Assembly: GCF_019063845.1 (NCBI RefSeq)
Contig: NZ_CP077683.1
Coordinates: forward strand, 248,001-312,000
Direction of reading: 5' to 3'
DNA from: Geomonas subterranea
GTDB lineage: Bacteria > Desulfobacterota > Desulfuromonadia > Geobacterales > Geobacteraceae
Length of the DNA stretch: 64,000 nt
In this document: piece by piece, positions 25,109 through 39,405 of the stretch
Numbering within the stretch: position 1 is the stretch's first letter
Layout: the number at the start of each line of letters is the position of its first letter
Made by a program: the position numbers and the translations under genes
The notes under the pieces: model-generated
Database searches by the model: none
Seen by the model: the letters and a program-made list of their open reading frames with translations, nothing else
Told to the model about the DNA's origin: nothing

Positions 25109-25921
25109 ATGTACGTGGTGGCTTGCATTAAACAGGTGCCGGATACGACGCAGGTGCAGATTGACCCGGTCACCAACACGCTGGTGCGCGATGGCATTCC
25201 CTTCATCGTCAACCCTTACGACACCCACGCGCTCGAGGAAAGCCTGCGCATGAAGGCGCGCTACGGCTTCAAGGCTGCCGCACTTTCCATGGGGCCGCCC
25301 AACACTGAGGCGACCCTGAGAAAGGCCCTGGCCCTGGGGGTGGACGAGGCGATCCTCTGCTCCGACCGCGCCTTCGGCGGCGCGGACACGCTCTCCACCA
25401 GCAACGTGCTGGCCGCGGCGATCAGGAAGCTGGCACAGGAGGACGAGGTGGGCATCGTGTTCTGCGGCAAGCAGACCATCGACGGCGACACCGCGCAGGT
25501 AGGGCCGGGCATCGCCATACGCCTTGGCTTCTCCCAGCTCACGCTGGTGGACCGCATCGAACACCTCGACTTCCTGGCCAAGAAAATCCGGGTCCGGCGC
25601 AAGCTGGAGGGACGTTACGAGATCGTGGAGGCGAAGCTTCCGGCCATGATCACCGTGGTGCGCGAGCTGAACCGCCCGCGCTACCCGACAGTCCCCATGC
25701 GGCTCAAGGCCGCCAAGGCGGAGGTGAAGGTCTGGGACAACAAGGAACTCCAGCTGGACCCGAACAGCGTCGGCCTGAAAGGTTCGCCCACCTGGGTGAG
25801 CAGGATCTTCTCGCCGCAGCGTGCCGCGGGGGAGATCATCGGCGACGGCTTGGGCGACCCGGCGGGGACCGCACGGCTGCTGCTGGAAAAGCTGGTGGCC
25901 AGCGACATGCTGGCGGTGTAG
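25109..25921 (+). CDS. etfB: Electron transfer flavoprotein beta subunit, second copy
   Basis: A full-length 270-residue Etf beta subunit. It begins MYVVACIKQVPDTTQVQIDP and has the nucleotide-binding GKQTIDGDTAQVGPGIAIRLG and the family motif LNRPRYPTVPMRLKAAKA. The long C-terminal tail (about residues 215-270) is typical of Etf sets that work with ferredoxin-fused alpha subunits. AAAGGA lies before ATG 25109. It is followed by the fused etfA and a membrane Fe-S oxidoreductase, so this set likely delivers electrons from acyl-CoA oxidation to menaquinone. Confidence 0.95.
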   Translation: MYVVACIKQVPDTTQVQIDPVTNTLVRDGIPFIVNPYDTHALEESLRMKARYGFKAAALSMGPPNTEATLRKALALGVDEAILCSDRAFGGADTLSTSNVLAAAIRKLAQEDEVGIVFCGKQTIDGDTAQVGPGIAIRLGFSQLTLVDRIEHLDFLAKKIRVRRKLEGRYEIVEAKLPAMITVVRELNRPRYPTVPMRLKAAKAEVKVWDNKELQLDPNSVGLKGSPTWVSRIFSPQRAAGEIIGDGLGDPAGTARLLLEKLVASDMLAV

Positions 25922-25965
25922 TTCTGCCGGCGCTGTGCAATTCAATAACGAGAGGACTTGAGCGG

Positions 25966-27315
25966 ATGGCTGAAGCTACAACCAAACTGAAGAAGCCGCG
26001 GGGGAAGGTCAGGCTGATCGAGGGGAAGTGCATCGCCTGCGGCGCGCGCTGCCAGAGCAGCTGTCCGGTGGACGGCATCCAGATGAGCGAGGCGGGCGAG
26101 CCCCACATCGAACTCTCCAAGTGCATCGGCTGCCTGAAGTGCGTGAAGGCCTGCCCGGGCTCGGCCCTAGAGATCTTCTACACCCCCGAGGAACTGGAGA
26201 TCCTGGCGCAGCTGGCCGGACAGCAGGACCTGGCGGAAGAGGATGCCGACCCGGAGGAACTGGCGCGCCGCGAGCTGGTGGCGGCGTACCGCGGGGTCTG
26301 GGTCTTCGTCGAGCAGACCGAGGGGGAGGCGGCCCGCGTTTCCTGGGAACTCATGGGTAAGGGGAAGGAGCTGGCCGCCAAGCTGGGTGTCGAGCTCTGC
26401 GCGGTGGTCATGGGGGACCAGGTGGAGCACCTGTGTCACGAGGCTTTCGGCTACGGCGCGGACAAGGCGTACCTCATGGACCAGCCGGTGCTCAAGCACT
26501 ACCGCACCTACCCGTACCTGGACGCCCTGTGCCACCTGATCGACAAGTTCAAGCCGGAGATCGTGCTCATGGGCGCGACCGGCATGGGACGCGACCTGGC
26601 CGGCGCCGTGGCGACCCGCGTCAAGACCGGCCTCACCGCGGACTGCACCGGCCTGGACATCGACGCCAAACGGAACCTTATGCAGACCCGGCCGGCCTTC
26701 GGCGGCAACATCATGGCGACCATCATGTGCGACCGGTTCCGCCCCCAGATGGCGACGGTGCGCTCCCACGTGATGCCGATGCCGGCGCAGATGCCGGGCC
26801 GGACCGGCAAGATCGTCCCGGCCAGCCTCCCCATCTCCGAGGCGGACATCTTCACCAAGGTGCTCCAGGTGATCCGCGACAAGAAGGCCGGGGACGTCGA
26901 CATCGCCGGCGCCGAGTTCATCGTTTCGGGCGGACGCGGCATGATGGCCAAGGAGAACTTCGCCATCCTGCAGGAGCTGGCCGACGAGCTTGGCGGCGTG
27001 GTGGGCGCCTCGCGCAGCGCGGTGGACGCGGGGTGGATGCCCGGCGACCGCCAGGTCGGGCAGACCGGCAAGACCGTGCGACCCAAGATATACATCGCCT
27101 GCGGCATCTCCGGCGCCATCCAGCACCTGGTGGGGATGCAGGACTCCGACCTGATCGTCGCCATCAACCGCGACAAGGAGGCTCCCATCTTCGAGGTGGC
27201 CAACTACGGGATCGTGGGCGACCTGTTCGACGTGGTCCCGGCCCTTATCGCCGCCCTGCGCGAGATGAAGGCGAGCAAGGGGAGCGTCGAGGTCAAGGAC
27301 GTCAAGGCGGCGTAG
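25966..27315 (+). CDS. etfA: Electron transfer flavoprotein alpha subunit with N-terminal 2[4Fe-4S] ferredoxin domain
   Basis: A 449-residue fusion. Residues about 17-70 are a two-cluster ferredoxin (CIACGARCQSSCP and CIGCLKCVKACP). After an acidic linker, residues about 100-440 are the Etf alpha fold with [15 protein letters not shown], the FAD site GGRGMMAKENFAI, GASRSAVDAGWMPGDRQVGQT and YIACGISGAIQH. The extra clusters could relay electrons to the membrane Fe-S protein encoded next. This form is known in anaerobes that degrade aromatic and fatty acids, including Geobacter. It lies 44 bases after etfB in an evident operon. The partner dehydrogenases are not in the window. Confidence 0.95.
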   Translation: MAEATTKLKKPRGKVRLIEGKCIACGARCQSSCPVDGIQMSEAGEPHIELSKCIGCLKCVKACPGSALEIFYTPEELEILAQLAGQQDLAEEDADPEELARRELVAAYRGVWVFVEQTEGEAARVSWELMGKGKELAAKLGVELCAVVMGDQVEHLCHEAFGYGADKAYLMDQPVLKHYRTYPYLDALCHLIDKFKPEIVLMGATGMGRDLAGAVATRVKTGLTADCTGLDIDAKRNLMQTRPAFGGNIMATIMCDRFRPQMATVRSHVMPMPAQMPGRTGKIVPASLPISEADIFTKVLQVIRDKKAGDVDIAGAEFIVSGGRGMMAKENFAILQELADELGGVVGASRSAVDAGWMPGDRQVGQTGKTVRPKIYIACGISGAIQHLVGMQDSDLIVAINRDKEAPIFEVANYGIVGDLFDVVPALIAALREMKASKGSVEVKDVKAA

Positions 27316-27351
27316 GGGAAGTTCTCTTCCGTCTCTGCCAGCCTGCAAAAA

Positions 27352-27526
27352 CTCTCCCTCGCCCTTCGGGCCTTCGCCCGCCTTAGGGCTTCGACCGGCC
27401 GGGAGAGGGTAGGGGTGAGGGCACCGCTTGCCGGGGTAATGCGTCGACGTGGGGTTGAGGCACTGCCCTCACCCTGACCCTCTCCCACCTCCGGACGGCG
27501 CCCTACGGAGGGCGAAGGGAAGTGGG
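27352..27526. repeat. Composite GC-rich palindromic repeat with occupied hairpin loops
   Basis: CTCTCCC pairs with GGGAGAG around a 41-base insert that starts GCCCTTCGGGCCTTCGCCCG. This is followed by GGGGTGAGGGCA and, 45 bases on, TGCCCTCACCCTGACCCTCTCCC, then another insert CTCCGGACGGCGCCCTACGG. The outer strings match family A. No gene is present between etfA and the next gene (271 bases). Confidence 0.6.
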
Positions 27527-27586
27527 CGCAGTGCGACGGAGGCTGCCACCGCCACCGCTTACCAACACACTTACAAGGACACGTAA

Positions 27587-29557
27587 ATGCAACCTGATCC
27601 TGTCATCTTTACACCGCTTCTGGCAGCCGCCGGAGTGATCTTCGCCTGGAGCTGCTACCGCCGTTTCCGCCTGGTCGCCGTCGGCGCCTCAGAGGACCGT
27701 TTCTCGAGGCTGCCCGAAAGGCTGCAGGGTATGTTCACGTTCGCCTTTTTGCAGAAGAGGGTGGTGAGCCGTCCCTTCGGCATCAACCACCTCTTCATCT
27801 TCTGGTCCTTTCTGATCCTCGCGGTCGCCAACACCGAGTTCCTGGTGGCGGGCGTGTTCCCGGCGGCGAAGCTGTCGCGGATCCTGCCACAAGCGCTCTA
27901 TCACCCGCTGGTCCTGGTGTTCGACGTGGTTTCGCTCTGCGCCCTCACCGCGGTGTTGATCGCAATGGTGCGACGCGCGGTTGCGCCCCCGTACCAGGGT
28001 GCCCGCACCGGCGAAGCCTTCGGCATCCTCTCGTTGATCGCCACGCTGATGCTCGCCTATTTCGGCGTCCACGCGGCGGAAATCGCACTGGGAGCGGAGG
28101 ACGCGGCGCAGTACATGCCGGTCTCCCTGGCGCTCTCGTCGCTTCTCGCGGCTGAGGGGGGGACGACATTGTTGAGCGTCGCCGAGGTCTCCTGGTGGCT
28201 GCACGCCGGGGTGCTCCTCTTCTTCCTGAACTACCTTCCCTACAGCAAGCACATGCACATACTTGCGGCGATACCCAACTGCTTCTTCAAGGAACTGGAG
28301 ACGCCGAACACTCAGCCGCGCGAGGAATTCGAGGAGGGGAACGTCTACGGCACCGGGAGCATCGACCGGTTCACCTGGAAGGACCTCTTCGACTCCTTCT
28401 CCTGCACCGAGTGCGGCCGCTGCGAGAAATCGTGCCCGGCTGCCAGCACCGGCAAACCGCTCAACCCGCGGCTGGTGATGCACGACATCAAGGTCAACCT
28501 GCTGGCCAACGGCGATCTTTTGCAGCGCGGCGGCGAGCCCACCGTGCCGGTCATCGGCGACGCCGAAGGGAGTATCAAGCCCGACGCACTCTGGTCCTGC
28601 ACCAGCTGCGGCGCGTGCCTCGCGGCGTGCCCGGTCTTCATCGAACAGATGCCCAAGATCACCAAGATGCGCCGGCACCTGGTGCAGATGGAGGCCGATT
28701 TCCCGGAAGAACTCCTGAACCTTTTCGAGAACATGGAACAGCGCTCCAACCCCTGGGGGATAGCTCCGGGCGAGCGCGGCAAGTGGGCCGGCGGACGCGA
28801 CGTGCATCAGTTCGAGGCGGGCAAGACCGAGTACCTTTACTTCGTCGGTTGCGCGGGCTCCTTCGACTCGCGCAGCAAACAGGTGACCCTGGCCATGACC
28901 CGGATCATGGAGGCGGCCGGCGTCTCCTTCGGCATCCTCGGCAAGGAGGAGAAGTGCTGCGGCGACAGCCTGCGCCGCCTGGGGAACGAGTACCTCTTCG
29001 ACAAGATGGCGAAAGAGAATGTGGCGCTGTTCCAGGAGAAGGGGGTCCGCAAGATCGTCACCCAGTGCCCGCACTGCTTCACCACGCTCAAGAACGACTA
29101 CCGCCAGTACGGCCTGGAGCTGGAGGTGATCCCGCACGCCGAGTTCATCGAATCGCTGTTGGCCCAGGGGAAGCTGAAGCTCGACCACCACGCCAAGAAG
29201 GGGGGCAACATCGTGTTCCACGATTCCTGCTACCTGGGGCGCCACAACGGCGTCTACACGGCGCCCCGGACGGTCATCGCGCAGGCGACCGGCAGCGCGC
29301 CCGCCGAGATGGAGAGAAACCGCGAGAATTCGTTCTGCTGCGGTGCCGGCGGGGGACGCATGTGGATGGAGGAGCACCTCGGCGAGAGGATCAACCTGAA
29401 CCGGGTGAACGAGGCGCTGGCTGGCAAGCCCGGCACCATCTGCACCACCTGTCCCTACTGCATGACCATGATGGAAGACGGGCTGAAGGACCGCTCCAGC
29501 GGCGGCACCACGGTGAAGGACATCGCGGAGCTGGTGGCAGAAGGGCTTAAAGGGTAG
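27587..29557 (+). CDS. Membrane-bound Etf:menaquinone oxidoreductase (EMO-type, HdrD-like Fe-S protein)
   Basis: A 656-residue protein with an N-terminal membrane domain of about six helices (residues 5-230; histidines include NHLF and VHAAE) like cytochrome b of nitrate reductase. A ferredoxin-type region follows (CTECGRCEKSCPA near 274 and CTSCGACLAACPV near 338). Two CCG domains come last (CCGDSLRRLG, then DSCYLGRHNG and CCGAGGGRMWMEE), which bind a noncubane cluster as in HdrD. Proteins of this architecture next to etfAB have been characterised as Etf:menaquinone oxidoreductases in Geobacter metallireducens and syntrophs. Here it is the third gene of the etfB-etfA operon and should pass electrons from acyl-CoA oxidation into the quinone pool. 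Confidence 0.92.
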   Translation: MQPDPVIFTPLLAAAGVIFAWSCYRRFRLVAVGASEDRFSRLPERLQGMFTFAFLQKRVVSRPFGINHLFIFWSFLILAVANTEFLVAGVFPAAKLSRILPQALYHPLVLVFDVVSLCALTAVLIAMVRRAVAPPYQGARTGEAFGILSLIATLMLAYFGVHAAEIALGAEDAAQYMPVSLALSSLLAAEGGTTLLSVAEVSWWLHAGVLLFFLNYLPYSKHMHILAAIPNCFFKELETPNTQPREEFEEGNVYGTGSIDRFTWKDLFDSFSCTECGRCEKSCPAASTGKPLNPRLVMHDIKVNLLANGDLLQRGGEPTVPVIGDAEGSIKPDALWSCTSCGACLAACPVFIEQMPKITKMRRHLVQMEADFPEELLNLFENMEQRSNPWGIAPGERGKWAGGRDVHQFEAGKTEYLYFVGCAGSFDSRSKQVTLAMTRIMEAAGVSFGILGKEEKCCGDSLRRLGNEYLFDKMAKENVALFQEKGVRKIVTQCPHCFTTLKNDYRQYGLELEVIPHAEFIESLLAQGKLKLDHHAKKGGNIVFHDSCYLGRHNGVYTAPRTVIAQATGSAPAEMERNRENSFCCGAGGGRMWMEEHLGERINLNRVNEALAGKPGTICTTCPYCMTMMEDGLKDRSSGGTTVKDIAELVAEGLKG

Positions 29558-29579
29558 GGGCAAGCGGGCGGAATCTCCT

Positions 29580-29679
29580 CCCCCTCCCTTGACGGGAGGG
29601 GGACGGGGGGAAGCCGCAAGTTATGGCGCTGATGGCACCTTCCCCCACCCCCTAGCCCCCTCCCGCAAGGGGCGGGGGG
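29580..29679. repeat. Dispersed palindromic repeat, family B
   Basis: Same order as at 21499: hairpin CCCCCTCCC-TTGAC-GGGAGGGGG, a body containing GATGGCACCTTCCCCCACCCCC, and end hairpin CCCTCCCGC-AAG-GGGCGGGGGG. The remaining 200 bases before the next gene show no other feature I can support. Confidence 0.75.
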
Positions 29680-31721: not shown

Positions 31722-32894
31722 TCACACCTCCAGTCTCAGTTCGATTCCCCACGGTGCGGGTTTCTCACCATCTGCGGTCAGGACCCACAGGGTCGGCAGC
31801 TCCATCTGCTCCGGTACCGGGCCGATGCCGTCGGTGAGATAGATGACCGCGGCGGGGAGGGGATGCATGGTCTTCGCGTACTCGAAGACGGGTCGCAGGT
31901 CGGTGAAGCCGCCGCCGTCGTAGCGCTGCGGCACGAAGGCGCTCCCCTTGAACGCCTCCACCTGCTGGATCCTGCTGTTGGCGTAGAGCACGGTGATGGC
32001 GGCATCGCGGCCGCGGGCTATCTGCAGCAACTCCGTGGCGAACGCTTCCCTCAACTCCGCGATGTTGGTGGAGTCGCTTACGTCGATGCCGACCAAAAGC
32101 GTCAGGCGGTGCCGTTTGCGCGATCCCGGGGTGTCGTGCTCGAAGCGGCGGTGTTCCCGCATCCAGGTGCTCTTCTTGCCGACCCTGCCCGCGGTGGCCA
32201 CGAACTGCCGCAGCACCTGGCGCCAGGGGATGGGGGAGGGGCGCAGGATGGCGTCCACCACCCCCCTCACCTCGGCCGGGGCTTCGCCGTCGCTGCCGCG
32301 CAGGCTCTCCCGGGTCACCGCGCGCAGCATCTCCTCGGCCAGCGGCAGCGGCGTGCTGTCGGCGTCGCTCCAGATGGCGTGATCGTCGAGCGTCGAGGCC
32401 CCCGCGGGATCCTTGCCCCCCCCCGATGCGCCCTCGACCTCCTGTGCCTCGTCGCCGAAACCGCTCCCCGCGAGGTTGCCGACGTCGAAGGGACGCACCA
32501 GAAGGCGGTAATACTCCTCCGCGGCGAGGCCGTCGGGAAGGTCGAACTGGTTCGGGTAGATCGCGTCTTCGGGCAGCCCCGGGGTGCCCGGGTTGATGGC
32601 CAGGTCGCAGCAGAGGTCCCAGTCGTGCGAGTTCTTCCCCTTGCCACGCAGCATGTGCAGGTGCAAGAGGTGCTTCACCATGTGCTCGAGCAGCGCCTGT
32701 TGCTGAGGTGCGCTGAGGAGGGAAAAGGAGGCGGGATCGACGGCGAGCGTCGGGGTGCCGTTGCGGATGGTGACACCGGCGGCCTTCCCGTTGAGCGGTC
32801 GTTCCTCCCGGCGCAGGTTGAGCAGGAAATGGCCGTAGAAGGGGCGCTCCTTTAAAAGCCGCACGACGGCGTTTTGCAGAGTGCCCGGCGCCAT
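31722..32894 (-). CDS. VWA-like metallopeptidase-type protein (DUF2201 family)
   Basis: A 390-residue protein. The N-terminal half resembles the predicted metallopeptidase domain of the DUF2201/COG3864 group, with FYGHFLLNL and LLEHMVKHLLHLHMLR, where the histidines stand in for a zinc site, then DWDLCCDLAIN. The C-terminal half is a VWA-like fold with a modified metal site, LLVGIDVSDSTN, and YDGGGFTDLRPVFEYAK and VIYLTDGIGPVPE. This protein is usually encoded beside a MoxR-type AAA ATPase, as here (three-base gap), and the pair is thought to act as a chaperone or protein-remodelling machine. The substrate is unknown. Confidence 0.87.
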   Translation of the reverse strand: MAPGTLQNAVVRLLKERPFYGHFLLNLRREERPLNGKAAGVTIRNGTPTLAVDPASFSLLSAPQQQALLEHMVKHLLHLHMLRGKGKNSHDWDLCCDLAINPGTPGLPEDAIYPNQFDLPDGLAAEEYYRLLVRPFDVGNLAGSGFGDEAQEVEGASGGGKDPAGASTLDDHAIWSDADSTPLPLAEEMLRAVTRESLRGSDGEAPAEVRGVVDAILRPSPIPWRQVLRQFVATAGRVGKKSTWMREHRRFEHDTPGSRKRHRLTLLVGIDVSDSTNIAELREAFATELLQIARGRDAAITVLYANSRIQQVEAFKGSAFVPQRYDGGGFTDLRPVFEYAKTMHPLPAAVIYLTDGIGPVPEQMELPTLWVLTADGEKPAPWGIELRLEV

Positions 32895-32897
32895 GGG

Positions 32898-33959
32898 CTA
32901 CCCCGCCTGCTCGCTGATCGCCTGCATGGCGTCGAAGATGACGGCGTCGTGCTTGTCCTTCACCAAAAGCAGCGCCACTTCCGGGATCTTCAGGAGCGAT
33001 TTGACGAAGCCGAAGCGGAGGTCGCGCGGCAGGACGGCGATGTAGGAGACGAGGTTGTCCTCCTGCTCCTCGCTGAGTCCGGGGGCGACCTGGAGCAGGG
33101 CGGAAAGGTCGTTGATGGTGGCGGCCTGCACGTCGTCGCGCTGCGCCTCGGCCCGCCCTGCCACGTTCGGCCAGTCGTTCAGCACCTCGTCCGCGGTAAC
33201 CGGCCTTCCCTTGCGGTCGGAGAGCCAGCGCATGAAGGCGATGGCCGCCTCCTTGCCGACGATCCCGGAGTAGACCTCCATCTCCAGGTCGGCGGGGAAG
33301 CGGCAGTTCTTCTTGAGGACGCTGACCATCTCCCAGGCGCGCTCGCTCGGTTCCACCTGCATCTCCATCGGCATCCCCTGCTTGGCAAGAAAGCCGTGGT
33401 TGCCCGCCAGGAACTGGCGCACCTCGCCGGCGAACTCACGCTTTTGGGCGTAGCGGGCCCAGCACTGGTAATCGGTCTCGACGAAGAGCATCACCATGCG
33501 GTCGATGAGCGCGCGGTCCAGGGTCGCCACCTGGTAGCTCCCGTCGGGCGGGTTGATGCTGACCACCACCTTGTGGCGGCGGGAAAGGGTATGGGTGTGG
33601 ATGGCGCGCAGCATCCCCTCGGCGGGGGGCTCCACGAACTGGAAGATCGCCTGCAGGGTGTCCTCCTGCTGGGCGCGGTTCAGTTCGTCGCAGTGGATCA
33701 CCGTCGGGGCGTCCTCGTCCCCAGGCAGCCACGACGGGCGCGACCACTGCATCACGTCGCCGATTCTAAACGGGATGCCGACCAGGTCGCCCACCTCCAT
33801 CTGCCCCAGGCGCAGCGAGACGTATTGCCGGTCCAGCTCGCGGCAGGCCTGGAGAATCCCGGCGCTCTTACCCACGCCGCGGTGCCCCACCACGCAGGGG
33901 GTGAGGTCGGTCCTGGAGAGGATCTCCTTCACCACGATCTTCATCTGTTCCACGTTCAT
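32898..33959 (-). CDS. MoxR-type AAA ATPase
   Basis: A 353-residue AAA+ ATPase and first gene of a three-gene operon. Walker A is VVGHRGVGKSAG near residue 24, Walker B is TVIHCDELNRAQQEDT, sensor 1 is KVVVSINPPDGSY, and an arginine finger lies in TLDRALIDRM. The C-terminal helical part continues to residue 353. The family works with VWA proteins to insert cofactors or remodel complexes; the adjacent DUF2201 protein is the expected partner. What it acts on is not evident. The start has GGAAGGACGCGAC ahead, a fair ribosome site. Confidence 0.92.
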   Translation of the reverse strand: MNVEQMKIVVKEILSRTDLTPCVVGHRGVGKSAGILQACRELDRQYVSLRLGQMEVGDLVGIPFRIGDVMQWSRPSWLPGDEDAPTVIHCDELNRAQQEDTLQAIFQFVEPPAEGMLRAIHTHTLSRRHKVVVSINPPDGSYQVATLDRALIDRMVMLFVETDYQCWARYAQKREFAGEVRQFLAGNHGFLAKQGMPMEMQVEPSERAWEMVSVLKKNCRFPADLEMEVYSGIVGKEAAIAFMRWLSDRKGRPVTADEVLNDWPNVAGRAEAQRDDVQAATINDLSALLQVAPGLSEEQEDNLVSYIAVLPRDLRFGFVKSLLKIPEVALLLVKDKHDAVIFDAMQAISEQAG

Positions 33960-34077: not shown

Positions 34078-34180
34078 CCCCTCCCCTCGCGGGAGGGGGT
34101 AGGGGGTGGGGGTAGGTGCCACATTCGCGCTGTTGGCACGTTCACCCACCCCCCTGCCCCCTCCCGTCAAGGGAGGGGGG
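34078..34180. repeat. Dispersed palindromic repeat, family B
   Basis: Hairpin CCCTCCC-CTCGC-GGGAGGG, a body with GTAGGTGCCAC ... GTTGGCACGTTCACCCACCC, then CCCCCTCCCGTCAAGGGAGG as the closing hairpin. The rest of the 415-base gap (33960-34374) shows only AT-rich promoter-like DNA near 34310-34330 before the YtxH gene. Confidence 0.75.
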
Positions 34181-34374
34181 GGGGAACGGGAGGGGAGGAA
34201 AGCTGAAAACGGTCCGGTCTTGACGGTGAAAATACCAACCGGACCACGCCGGGGGGGAGGGGGAATCCGACTTTTGTCGGTCCAGCCCGGCCACGTTTTT
34301 GGTGGTTGGACGAAGTTAATTTATATTGGTAGTATTACCGCTGTTGTTCAAAACCTGTAGACGGAGGAGGCGGT

Positions 34375-35144: not shown

Positions 35145-36365
35145 CTAGCCCCGCCGCGCTTCACGTGCTGCTTCGCCAGGCTCCGGCCGCTCCTCGCCGT
35201 CCTCGAACCGGGTCCCCTTGCGGCACCAGCGCCCGCCGCTCACGATGGAGGAGAGGGCGCCCTCGCGCTCGACGGTATCGGCGCGGACCGAAAGGTAGAC
35301 GTGGATCGGGATGAAGGCGAGGAATATCCACATGATGAGCTGGTGGGCCAGGCGCAGGTACTGCACCCCGATGACCTCGTCCAACCGGACCAGGTACCCG
35401 AAAAACCAGTTTTCCGGATCGTAGAGGGCGTACAGGGCAAAGCCGGTGATCAGGGCCAGCAGTCCCACGGCGAAGATGGCGGTGTAGGCGACCTGCTGCA
35501 GCGGGTTGTGCCCTATGTAGTGCGGCGGACGGTCGAAACGGCAGAAGAGATAATTCTGCGCCACCTGGAGCAGGTTCTTCAGGTCGCGAACGCGGACCGG
35601 GAAGAGGGCGTACCAGCGCTGGAACCGGTTCGAAGCGAGGAAGAGTCCGGCGATGCGCAGGATCGCCGCGCAGAGCAGGAGCCATCCCGCCACGAAGTGG
35701 GTGAGCCTCAGCCAGCTCAGGTAGTTGGAGTAACCGCCGGTCACCCCGTAGATGAACCGGCTGCTTCCCATCAAGAGGCCGGTAAGGGAGAGGACCACGA
35801 TCAGCAGTACCGCCAGCCAGTGCAGCACGCGCAGCTGCCAGTCCCACACCGGCACGTAGTAAAAGTCCCCCGGCTCGTCGCTGCGCCGGCTCTTCTCCCT
35901 GGTGGCCCGCACCGGGATGTACCCCAGGAACTCCCAGCTTTCCCCGCCGTCCGGGGCGATACGCCCTCTCCCCACACCAAGCGCCCGGAAGCCGTGCGTC
36001 ATCTGCATCTCCGCCTGGAGCTCGGCCCGGTAGCGGGTCGCCTCGTCCGGGTGGCAGAGGTAGAGGATGCTGTCCACCTCGCCCCGGGCGTAAAGCACCT
36101 CCTCACCCGAATCCACCCGGCGCACCCGGGCCACGCTCCTGGCCAGGCGCGGCTCCAGCGGCGTGAAGCCGGTCTGCTCGTAGTGGCGCAGGTCCTCCTT
36201 TTTCGACGCCGCGCTCAAGAGCGCCAGGTCCACCGGATCCCCGGTGCCAAAGGGGGCGCCCAGCGCGGCGGCGATGAGGAGGTCGCGCCGCTTCCTTCGG
36301 CCGAAGGGGACCGGGTCTCCCAGCTCGATGCGGATTTCGGATTCCGGTACCTGGTAGAGGCTCAT
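35145..36365 (-). CDS. Hydrogenase b-type cytochrome with N-terminal P-type-ATPase N-domain-like extension
   Basis: A 406-residue protein. The C-terminal half (residues 172-380) is the four-helix cytochrome b of membrane [NiFe] hydrogenases, with candidate haem histidines 182 (RVLHWL), 223 (LTHFV), 341 (RLAHQ) and 355 (PIHVYL); it passes electrons from H2 to the quinone pool. The first 160 residues are unusual and align by eye with the nucleotide-binding domain of proton-type P-type ATPases: DLLIAAALG, GDPVDLALLSAA, GFTPLEPRLARSVARV, GEEVLYARGEVDSILYLC, HGFRALGVG and WEFLGYIP. The catalytic DKTGT domain is absent. The start ATG overlaps the large-subunit stop by four bases (ATGA), so translation is coupled. 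Confidence 0.85.
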   Translation of the reverse strand: MSLYQVPESEIRIELGDPVPFGRRKRRDLLIAAALGAPFGTGDPVDLALLSAASKKEDLRHYEQTGFTPLEPRLARSVARVRRVDSGEEVLYARGEVDSILYLCHPDEATRYRAELQAEMQMTHGFRALGVGRGRIAPDGGESWEFLGYIPVRATREKSRRSDEPGDFYYVPVWDWQLRVLHWLAVLLIVVLSLTGLLMGSSRFIYGVTGGYSNYLSWLRLTHFVAGWLLLCAAILRIAGLFLASNRFQRWYALFPVRVRDLKNLLQVAQNYLFCRFDRPPHYIGHNPLQQVAYTAIFAVGLLALITGFALYALYDPENWFFGYLVRLDEVIGVQYLRLAHQLIMWIFLAFIPIHVYLSVRADTVEREGALSSIVSGGRWCRKGTRFEDGEERPEPGEAAREARRG

Positions 36366-38077
36366 TGCACCTTCACCTCCACGCCGCCGCCACCGGGGAC
36401 CAGCAGGTGCACGGCGCAGGACTCGCACGGGTCGAATGAGTGGATGGTGCGCAGCACCTCGATGGGACGTTTGGGGTCGGAGAGCGGGTGTGTGCCGCCG
36501 CCGGCCAGGGCCTGCTCGAAGGGACCCATCTGGCCGCCGGGGTCGCGGCCGGAACTGTTCCAGGTGCTGGGGACCACGGCCTGGTAGCGGGAGACGCGCC
36601 CGTTTTCGATCTCCACCCAGTGCGACAGGGTGCCGCGGGCCGCCTCCATGAAACCGACCCCCTGCGCCTGCCGGGGCCAGCTCGACGGTTCCCACAGCTC
36701 CGGGTTGAAGGTGGCGATGTCTCCCGAACGGATCCTTTCGTTCAGCTGGGCGAACCACTGGTCCATGCGCCGGGCGAGGAGCACGGATTCCAGCGCCCGG
36801 CAGTAGGTCCGTCCCAGCGTCGAGTTCATCGCCTCGACCCCGGCGTTGAGTTTTGCGAGCCCCTCCCGGGCCAGTTGCGCCGTCTCGGCGTGCCCCTGCG
36901 CCAAAGCGAGCAGGATGCGGGCGTTGGGCCCCACCTGCACGGCGCGCCCTTCGTAGCGCGGCGCCTTGCACCAGGTGTACTTGGGCTGGTCGGAGAGCTC
37001 CTTGAAGGGGGGCTTGGGCCCGGTGTAGTTCGGCTCGGTGCGCCCCTGCCAGGGGTGGAGTCCCTGCCGGTCCCCCTCGGGCTGGCTGTACCAGGCGGAG
37101 GAGATGAATTCGGCGACCTTCCTGGCATCGAAGGGGTGGGCGGTGCGGTAATCGCCGTCCATGATGAGACCTGCCGGGACCGCGCCACCCGCCGGGGCGC
37201 CCGGGCAGGAGTAGGCGCTCTCACCGGTGGCCAGGAGGGTGGTGGATGAGGCGCCGATGGCGGCGTACTCGGGATAGAAGGAGGCGATGGCGAGGACGTC
37301 GGGGTAGTAGACCTCCTGCACGAAGCGCCGCGCCTGGTCGATCATCCCCGCCATCTCGTCCAGCCGCACCCTGTTGATGGCGATCTGGTTGTCGAGGTTT
37401 ATGGAGCAGGCCATCCCCCCGACCAGGTAGTTCGGGTGCGGGTTTTTGCCGGCGAGGATGGTGTGCAGGCGGATGATCTCGCGCTGCCAGGAGAGCGCCT
37501 CCAGGTAGTGGGCGAGCGCCATCAGGTTCGCCTCGGGGGGGAGGCGGTAGGCGGGATGCCCCCAGTATCCGCCGGCGAAGATACCCAGTCCCCCGCCCGC
37601 CGAGTCGGCCACCCGCTTTTGCACCTCGCGGTACCAGGTGGCGGAGTTGTTGGGCCAGGGGGAAAGAGATGCGGCCAGGCGGGAGGTGGCGGCGGGGTCG
37701 GCCTTGAGCGCGCTCATCACGTCGACCCAGTCCAGGGCGTGCAGGTGGTAGAAGTGCATCACATGGTCCTGCAGGGTGGCCATCCCGGAGACCAGGCTGC
37801 GGATCAGCTCCGCGCAGGGAGGGATCTTGCACTTGATGGCGTCCTCGACCGCGCGGATGGAGGCGATGGCGTGCACGCCGGTGCAGACGCCGCAGATGCG
37901 CTGCGCGAAGGCCCAGGCGTCGCGCGGGTCGCGTCCCTGCAGCACCCGCTCGATACCCCTGAACTGGGTGGCGCAGGCCCAGGCGTTGCCGATCCTCCCC
38001 CCGTCCGTCTCCAGTTCGATGCGCAGGTGCCCCTCGATCCGGGTGATGGGGTCGATGACGATTCGCTCGCCGGCCAT
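36362..38077 (-). CDS. [NiFe] hydrogenase large subunit
   Basis: A 571-residue catalytic subunit that splits H2. Both nickel-binding pairs are present: RICGVCTGVHA near residue 61 and DPCESCAVH near the C terminus, followed by a 14-residue tail that a maturation protease must remove after the histidine. Start PITRIEGHLRIELETDGG is typical of group 1 uptake enzymes. It lies between the small-subunit gene (140 bases upstream) and the cytochrome b gene, which overlaps it by four bases. No maturation protease or hyp gene is in the window, so maturation is supplied from elsewhere. Confidence 0.96.
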   Translation of the reverse strand: MAGERIVIDPITRIEGHLRIELETDGGRIGNAWACATQFRGIERVLQGRDPRDAWAFAQRICGVCTGVHAIASIRAVEDAIKCKIPPCAELIRSLVSGMATLQDHVMHFYHLHALDWVDVMSALKADPAATSRLAASLSPWPNNSATWYREVQKRVADSAGGGLGIFAGGYWGHPAYRLPPEANLMALAHYLEALSWQREIIRLHTILAGKNPHPNYLVGGMACSINLDNQIAINRVRLDEMAGMIDQARRFVQEVYYPDVLAIASFYPEYAAIGASSTTLLATGESAYSCPGAPAGGAVPAGLIMDGDYRTAHPFDARKVAEFISSAWYSQPEGDRQGLHPWQGRTEPNYTGPKPPFKELSDQPKYTWCKAPRYEGRAVQVGPNARILLALAQGHAETAQLAREGLAKLNAGVEAMNSTLGRTYCRALESVLLARRMDQWFAQLNERIRSGDIATFNPELWEPSSWPRQAQGVGFMEAARGTLSHWVEIENGRVSRYQAVVPSTWNSSGRDPGGQMGPFEQALAGGGTHPLSDPKRPIEVLRTIHSFDPCESCAVHLLVPGGGGVEVKVQ

Positions 38078-38217: not shown

Positions 38218-39405
38218 TCACGTCTTTTGATTTTCGTCCCGCGACGGCGGCTCCGCGTCCCCCAAAACCGCGAGCGGCAGGGTCTCCGGCTTGGCCTTTT
38301 TGGTCCGCTTCCGCGCGATCACGGTCGCGGCGGAATGGACCGCCACGCCACCCACCGAGGCGGCCACGGCGGCGACGCCGATGGTGTTGGCGGTCGCCTC
38401 GACGCCGAGCCCCGGGACGACGAATCCGGGGAGCCTGCGGTAAAAGGGTGTCATGCGGTCGTAGAAGTGGCGCTCGGTGCACCCAAGGCAGGGGTGCCCG
38501 GCCTTGATGGGGAAGCTCTGCCCCAGGTTCCACTCGACCGTTGCGCAGGGGGCGAAGGTGGCGGGACCCTTGCACCCCAGGCGGTACAGGCAGTACCCCC
38601 GGCGGGCGTTCTCGTCGTCGAAGCGCTCGGCGAACTGGCCGGCATCGAAACTCGCCCGGCGCGGGCACTTGTCGTGGATCCTCTGCCCGTAGGCGAACAG
38701 GGGGCGTCCCTGGCCGTCCAGCGGCGGCGGGTGCCCGTAGGCGAGGTAGTAGGTGAGGGTGGCGGTGATGGTTTCGGCGATGGGAGGGCAGCCGCTTATG
38801 TTGATCACGGGACGGTCGGTGATGATGTCGGCGACCCCTACGGCGCCGGTGAGGTTCGGGGATGCGGCCTGCACGCAGCCGTACTCGGCGCAGGCGCCCA
38901 CGGCCATGATGGCGTCCGCTTTTCGCGCCGCGCGGCGGAGCAGGTTCTCGGCCGAGTCGCCGCCGATGGTGCAGTAGGCGCCGCCGGCCCCCAGGGGCAC
39001 CGAGCCGTTCACCAGGAGGAGGTGGGGTCTCGCGGCGGCCTCCCGCAGCACCTCCTCTGCGGCGTCACCTGAGGGCGCCATCAGCAGCTCGTTGTAATCG
39101 AGCGATACCTGTTCCAGGATCAGCCTGTCGATGGGGCTGCTGCCCGAGCGAAGCAGGCTCTCCAGGCAGCCGGTGCATTCCTGCAACTGCAGGTAGATGA
39201 CGCCGGGGCGCCTGGCGCCGGAAAGCTTTTGCGCCATCTCCTCCGCCAGCGCCGGCGCCCCCCCCGGGAGCGCCGCGGCGGCGGCGAAGCAGGCCGCCAT
39301 CCTGCCGCAAAAGGTGAGAAACTCCCGCCTGCTGACGCCGCGCCGCGTGAGAAACTCCGCGAAGGTTTCGCCGCGCGACCAACCGCCTTCCATGGGGTCT
39401 TTCAT
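38218..39405 (-). CDS. [NiFe] hydrogenase small subunit with Tat signal
   Basis: A 395-residue Fe-S subunit. The twin-arginine signal is GVSRREFLTFCGRM near residue 25, followed by a hydrophobic stretch. Cluster ligands include LQECTGCLESLLR (proximal), GACAEYGCVQ, SGCPP, and the medial and distal set RLGCKGPATFAPC and GHPCLGCTE. A C-terminal hydrophobic helix (IGVAAVAASVGGVAV) anchors it to the membrane next to the cytochrome. The open frame extends 24 codons upstream, but ATG 39405 has GGAGA seven bases ahead. It is the first gene of the operon, behind a sigma-70-like promoter. The enzyme faces the periplasm. Confidence 0.95.
   Translation of the reverse strand: MKDPMEGGWSRGETFAEFLTRRGVSRREFLTFCGRMAACFAAAAALPGGAPALAEEMAQKLSGARRPGVIYLQLQECTGCLESLLRSGSSPIDRLILEQVSLDYNELLMAPSGDAAEEVLREAAARPHLLLVNGSVPLGAGGAYCTIGGDSAENLLRRAARKADAIMAVGACAEYGCVQAASPNLTGAVGVADIITDRPVINISGCPPIAETITATLTYYLAYGHPPPLDGQGRPLFAYGQRIHDKCPRRASFDAGQFAERFDDENARRGYCLYRLGCKGPATFAPCATVEWNLGQSFPIKAGHPCLGCTERHFYDRMTPFYRRLPGFVVPGLGVEATANTIGVAAVAASVGGVAVHSAATVIARKRTKKAKPETLPLAVLGDAEPPSRDENQKT

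Follow-up and report, generated by a model that had tools for sequence, protein, structure and literature searches.

The locus described here, from Geomonas subterranea, raises the question of what a domain that looks like part of a proton pump is doing at the N terminus of a hydrogenase cytochrome b. An earlier note on this DNA had read the first 160 residues of the protein as a remnant of the nucleotide-binding (N) domain of a P-type ATPase, and had proposed that such a domain would let energy state regulate H2 oxidation.

The fused cytochrome gene and its N-terminal domain

The gene for the fused protein occupies 35145..36365 on the minus strand of the window, by which we mean the whole stretch of 64,000 nucleotides that was analysed (positions 248,001 to 312,000 of contig NZ_CP077683.1). 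It encodes 406 amino acids plus a stop codon. The start codon shares the sequence ATGA with the stop codon of the gene for the large subunit and is preceded by the Shine-Dalgarno sequence GGAGGT at 36375..36380 (minus strand). The large subunit, recognised by NiFe large-subunit models, is encoded at 36362..38077 and the small subunit, which scored 403 bits with TIGR00391, at 38218..39405, both on the minus strand. A twin-arginine leader, SRREFL, was seen by eye in the small subunit; the start given for this gene is a candidate only, and the open frame extends to 39477. The order small subunit, large subunit, fusion was observed in 18 of the 19 loci fetched, while in the remaining one (L067) the contig starts within the large subunit.

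The C-terminal part of the protein, residues 173-379 (35229..35849, minus strand), is a cytochrome b561-type membrane domain. PF01292 (Ni_hydr_CYTB) matched residues 173-377 with an E-value of 2e-25 and a score of 90.1 bits (cut-off, 30.1). Four histidines (His182, His223, His341 and His355), which we take, from the HyaC family, to be heme ligands, were kept in the 19/19 fusions that no contig end truncates as well as in 18/18 plain hydrogenase cytochromes b. These histidines, the PF01292 score and the position of the gene after those for the small and large subunits are shared with the HyaC-type cytochromes b (PF01292, TIGR02125, 4gd3). The fusion differs from them in carrying an extra N-terminal domain of about 165 residues and in a score of 118.7 bits with TIGR02125 (hydrogenase cytochrome b), slightly below the cut-off of 121.5. 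The fusion is the subunit predicted to pass electrons from the H2-oxidising enzyme to quinone and the respiratory chain.

The same genome encodes a plain hydrogenase of the same enzyme type (large subunit at G000:C1:3331097-3332758, cytochrome b to 3333460), whose large subunit is 54% identical to that of the fused operon and whose cytochrome matches the fusion solely across residues 171-385. The large subunit at 36362-38077 has a C-terminal DPCxxCxxH tail, and no HycI-type maturation protease gene for the fused hydrogenase was found in the window. In contrast, one of the two HycI-type protease genes of the genome, at C1:3333793-3334176, lies about 330 bases behind the cytochrome gene of the plain hydrogenase.

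The N-terminal domain (residues 12-152; 35910..36332, minus strand) was compared with P-type ATPases by several kinds of search. TIGR01647, the model of the plasma-membrane H+-ATPase family, aligned its positions 306-439 of 755 with residues 1-162 (E 5.8e-12) and matched all 20 of the fusion members described below, with a best value of 1e-13. When the 20 fusions were compared by hhalign with the N domains of 19 type IIIA pumps, the probability was 99.8% and the E-value 7.7e-28. Among solved structures, the single sequence found the Pma1-type pump 1mhs at E 0.0014, UvrB at 0.0034 and the next pump at 0.0044; a profile of the 20 sequences found Pma1, AHA2 and 1mhs at 1.3e-4 to 6.8e-4, with the next match at 1.6. 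A search of this kind had been named beforehand as the one that could overturn the assignment; it gave the expected match and no better one to another fold. Pfam-A gave no match to the N-terminal piece of the window protein and, across the 20 members, yielded just two differing weak matches in one member each, so that the domain is not recognised by that collection. As to chance resemblance, the reversed profile reached a probability of 0.2% in hhalign and the best of 50 column-shuffled profiles 4.0% (E 0.01), and these controls rule it out.

The alignment starts directly past the DKTGTLTxN stretch of the pump and stops directly ahead of its DPPRED hinge; because its limits fall at the pump hinges, the unit corresponds to the N domain as bounded by that pair of hinges. 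Where the pump has the DPPRED hinge, the fusion has a linker (residues 153-172; 35850..35909, minus strand) with several Arg/Lys at its start. No DKTGT phosphorylation motif was present in the aligned first 170 residues of any of the 20 fusions, and the remainder of the window protein is the cytochrome b match, with no pump transport domain. The sequence blocks by which the resemblance was originally recognised are present in the translation, in the same order as in the type IIIA ATPase N domain. The interval first given for it, 35886-36293 (residues 25-160), overlaps the region of homology, although it starts 13 residues late and ends 8 residues too far.

We also modelled the whole protein with AlphaFold, template-free and with seven sequences as input. 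The model was modest (mean pLDDT 52, pTM 0.38); across residues 11-150, the values for blocks of ten residues were 56-83. Its best PDB match was Pma1 (7vh6; E 3.3e-7, with a query TM-score of 0.29 over the entire chain), and the 39 PDB matches at E<=1e-3 consisted of 38 P-type ATPases and one E. coli hydrogenase-1 cytochrome b (4gd3), so that the predicted fold is that of a type IIIA N domain. A model of the N domain alone, from seven sequences, was very poor (pLDDT 38). The N domain of the Mg transporter MgtA has been solved alone (PDB 3gwi, 170 residues), an indication that the N domains of P-type ATPases can fold independently; 3gwi is a piece cut from a pump, whereas the protein described here is a natural fusion.

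Sequence profiles, predicted fold and conservation in 20 genomes all support the fusion that the earlier note had proposed, and these comparisons confirm the N-terminal domain as a complete type IIIA (proton-pump) P-type ATPase N domain on a hydrogenase cytochrome b. It resembles the N domain of Pma1 and AHA2 (TIGR01647 306-439) in colinear sequence, boundaries and predicted fold. Unlike the pumps, the fusion has no P, A or membrane transport domains, its main ATP contacts are replaced, and a cytochrome b is attached to it.

The Shine-Dalgarno core GAGGT stands ahead of the N-domain ATG in 20/20 fusions, and a single open frame spans both parts in each of the 19 members without a contig-end cut. 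A split gene or a mis-called start is ruled out by the ribosome-binding core together with the one open frame. The dN/dS of the N domain was 0.08-0.19 in 10/10 pairs, in a set whose pairs share lineages and in which dS is near saturation in three comparisons. For the same ten pairs, the cytochrome part gave 0.03-0.26 and lay below the N-domain value in seven, indicating that the N domain is less constrained than its carrier. From the Shine-Dalgarno core and the dN/dS values, we conclude that the N domain is very probably translated and, as judged by these ratios, is kept by purifying selection. A dead remnant is ruled out by the dN/dS values and by the presence of the domain in three families; the term remnant, as first applied to it, therefore gives way to that of a complete domain under purifying selection.

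Distribution and origin of the fused hydrogenase

The same fusion had been suggested as something to look for in the hydrogenase operons of relatives, and it was found in 20 of 277 genomes of the class, distributed over three families of one order. Twelve of these are among the 19 genomes of the genus itself (the present one included), and the other eight belong to two further families of the order. The named relatives comprise Geomonas azotofigens, propionica, diazotrophica, oryzae and edaphica, and Citrifermentans bremense. The other N-domain matches in the class (E<=1e-6) sit in open frames of 586-972 residues, which are pumps or pump pieces. In a sample of the phylum (395 genomes), the fusion was seen, among the matches listed, only in the present genome and in one other (G144). 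Two other classes (46 and 63 genomes) yielded no fusion; a single match there, in G662, falls within a frame of 508 residues where a contig begins.

The presence of the domain follows the type of hydrogenase. Among the matches listed, 20 large subunits are at least 67% identical to that of the window and the next ones are at most 57% identical; in the 30 loci inspected, the N domain was present in 20/20 of the former group and 0/10 of the latter. In a tree of large subunits, the fusion needs one change (SH-aLRT 100). Judged by this tree and these counts, the fusion marks a single clade of membrane-bound [NiFe] hydrogenase. Inspection of 20 plain cytochrome loci showed, in every one, a frame that starts within 41 residues of the matched core. 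For the seven genomes of the genus that have no fusion, only the distant plain hydrogenase, with 54-55% identity, was seen among the matches listed; consequently, it appears to be this hydrogenase type that these genomes lack, and not merely its N domain that they have lost.

The clade is patchy, and two families (f2 and f3) are intermixed in the large-subunit tree, which makes transfer of the fused hydrogenase between lineages possible. In the eight members from other families, identity to the window protein was 52-68% for the N domain and 60-66% for the cytochrome part, the latter computed over just 41 residues for L098. In a tree of N domains, the fusions formed one group amid the type IIIA pumps (SH-aLRT 100), with a stem length of 2.59 changes per site. 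The pumps in this tree are those found by the query, and the tree program gave a warning of possible long-branch attraction; because of the long branches, the place of the fusion group among the pumps, and hence the donor, is unsure. No donor pump could be identified in the same genome: the best TIGR01647 match there scored 430 bits, below the cut-off of 615.5, and a search of that genome with the N domain at E<=10 recovered only the domain itself. We propose that a bacterial type IIIA (H+-pumping) P-type ATPase was the source of a complete N domain, taken over, most simply in a single event, with none of the P, A and transport domains. It would have been joined to the N terminus of the cytochrome b in one hydrogenase clade, and it is still found in every member seen.

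We know of no other P-type ATPase N domain that serves outside a pump, and a search of the open-licence literature found none. The same literature gave no description of an N domain fused to a hydrogenase cytochrome. The fusion is not mentioned in the hydrogenase passages of the Geobacter/Pelobacter genome papers PMC2996986, PMC2825233 and PMC3543383. Both parts of the protein are ordinary; the combination is new to us.

Changes in the ATP pocket

The register of the pocket was taken from alignments rather than from SERCA itself, and SERCA numbering is used here. At the position of the adenine-stacking Phe487, the fusions have Leu (13), Pro (6) or His (1), whereas 19/19 type IIIA pumps have Phe. 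Only 5 of the 20 fusions have Lys at the position of Lys492. In place of the KGA motif (Lys515, Gly516, Ala517), every fusion has R-G-(E/D/N): the Lys515 equivalent (Arg94) is always Arg, the position of Ala517 holds Glu, Asp or Asn, where all 19 pumps have Ala, and Gly alone (Gly95) is kept. Other positions are nearly fixed. The Glu442 equivalent is Asp (Asp46) throughout, and the Arg560 equivalent (Arg127) is Arg in 19 of the 20 and Lys once; of the positions in the old pocket, Asp46, Ser77, Arg94 and Gly95 are invariant in 20/20.

We compared the conservation of the pocket with that of the whole domain, using the SERCA residues as the pocket set. In the pumps, mean entropy was 0.19 bits for the pocket vs 1.38 bits for the whole domain; in the fusions it was 0.56 vs 0.84 bits, and 7.8% of 20,000 random draws were as low. 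The pocket set of the fusions no longer stands out clearly from the rest by its conservation, and it is still somewhat above average in this respect.

Passages of earlier work describe Phe487 and Arg560 as necessary for nucleotide binding (PMC3203174), Arg560 of SERCA as important for it (PMC11977196), and an N-domain ATP site that includes a conserved Lys, absent from P1B and P6 pumps (PMC10654040). The substitutions listed above point to a remodelled ATP pocket in which pump-like ATP binding is unlikely. Since the equivalents of Phe487, Lys515, Lys492 and Ala517 are altered, plain ATP sensing is the less likely version of a sensory role. The proposal that nucleotide binding lets energy state control H2 oxidation is likewise weakened, because the changes at Phe487 and at the Lys and Ala of KGA are found in 20/20 fusions. 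Some nucleotide binding may survive, the change from Lys to Arg being a mild one. A changed ligand in the remodelled pocket is also possible, given the constancy or near-constancy of Asp46, Ser77, Arg94, Gly95 and Arg127.

Possible roles of the domain and the surrounding genes

HyaC-type cytochromes have their N terminus in the cytoplasm, and the basic residues with which the linker begins, ahead of the first membrane helix, fit such an orientation. The N domain would then lie on the cytoplasmic face, adjoining the quinone-reducing side. We consider it most likely, with a probability of about 0.6, that it has been re-purposed as a module for regulation or docking on the quinone-reducing subunit. 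It would act as a binding module, most likely not for ATP in the manner of the pump, and would dock a ligand or a protein partner, thereby tuning or placing electron transfer from H2 to quinone. A more specific and rather doubtful version of this idea makes the domain a built-in cytoplasmic sensor, in which a nucleotide or nucleotide-like ligand in the Arg94/Gly95/Arg127/Asp46 pocket would gate the flow of electrons from H2 to quinone; if true, this would be a direct allosteric link of energy state to H2 respiration.

Two other functions were weighed against the regulatory or docking module. The domain might still bind ATP or ADP, with Arg94 standing in for the Lys and another contact for the adenine, and so report energy state and throttle H2 oxidation. 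The constancy of Asp46 and Gly95, the near-constancy of Arg127, a Lys515 equivalent that is always Arg, the predicted N-domain fold and purifying selection are all consistent with this. However, in every fusion the positions of Phe487 and Ala517 hold residues that the pumps do not use, and a conservation of the pocket that is extreme in pumps lies nearer to background in the fusions, so that we regard ATP/ADP sensing as unlikely. A V/A-type ATPase subunit-I gene near the hydrogenase in three loci (L078, L099 and L101) could be cited in its favour, and we do not lean on it; the gene is absent from the window, from 11 other loci of the genus and from 12 kb of L102/L103, in a survey in which the sequences of L067, L098 and L100 are too short to be informative. 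Alternatively, the domain could serve purely in structure or assembly, stabilising the cytochrome or docking the complex to another membrane protein, and have no small ligand. Loss of the main ATP contacts would fit such a role, as would the many invariant residues specific to the fusions that lie outside the pocket, among them the DLR(H)Y.Q stretch, Arg80, Arg82, Tyr102 (in the LYLC stretch) and Glu142. But five positions of the old pocket are almost invariant, and plain hydrogenase cytochromes b manage without such a domain in 20/20 plain loci, and we think a purely structural part improbable.

It is also conceivable that the resemblance is due to chance, or that the N domain is an artefact and is not translated with the cytochrome. 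Alternative in-frame GTG/ATG codons do occur near the start of the cytochrome part (e.g., codons 171, 173 and 199), and the silence of Pfam on this domain could be taken in the same sense. Nevertheless, the profile and fold matches with their negative controls, the Shine-Dalgarno core, the low dN/dS and the unbroken frame leave both versions with very little probability.

If the domain is regulatory, as the favoured reading allows, it would give metal-reducing bacteria of soil and sediment a new means of controlling H2 oxidation, and would illustrate how part of a pump can become a sensor or docking module in its own right. Species of Geomonas and Citrifermentans allow the fusion to be tested directly, and the plain hydrogenase of the present genome offers an internal control.

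Several features of the surrounding DNA were recorded as well. In family f2, the subunit-I genes lie at L099:10482-12000, L101:1-1441 and L078:1-1619, and in these three loci a B12-binding radical SAM gene stands between the hydrogenase and the subunit-I gene. The radical SAM gene is also present in L102, with no subunit I within 1.7 kb beyond it. In the window, positions 25109-29557 hold EtfB/EtfA-like genes with ferredoxin clusters (seen by eye) and the gene of a CCG-domain membrane Fe-S oxidoreductase, which are possibly an ETF:menaquinone route, encoded as a separate cluster near the hydrogenase. A G-rich inverted pair of 37 bases, 89% complementary, at 29574-29610 and 34149-34185, could be a dispersed intergenic repeat. 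Finally, 31722-33959 contains a DUF2201 (VWA-like) gene and a neighbour that resembles a MoxR-type ATPase by eye and had no Pfam or NCBIfam match at 0.001. Both genes were found near the fused hydrogenase in 11/11 other loci of the genus.
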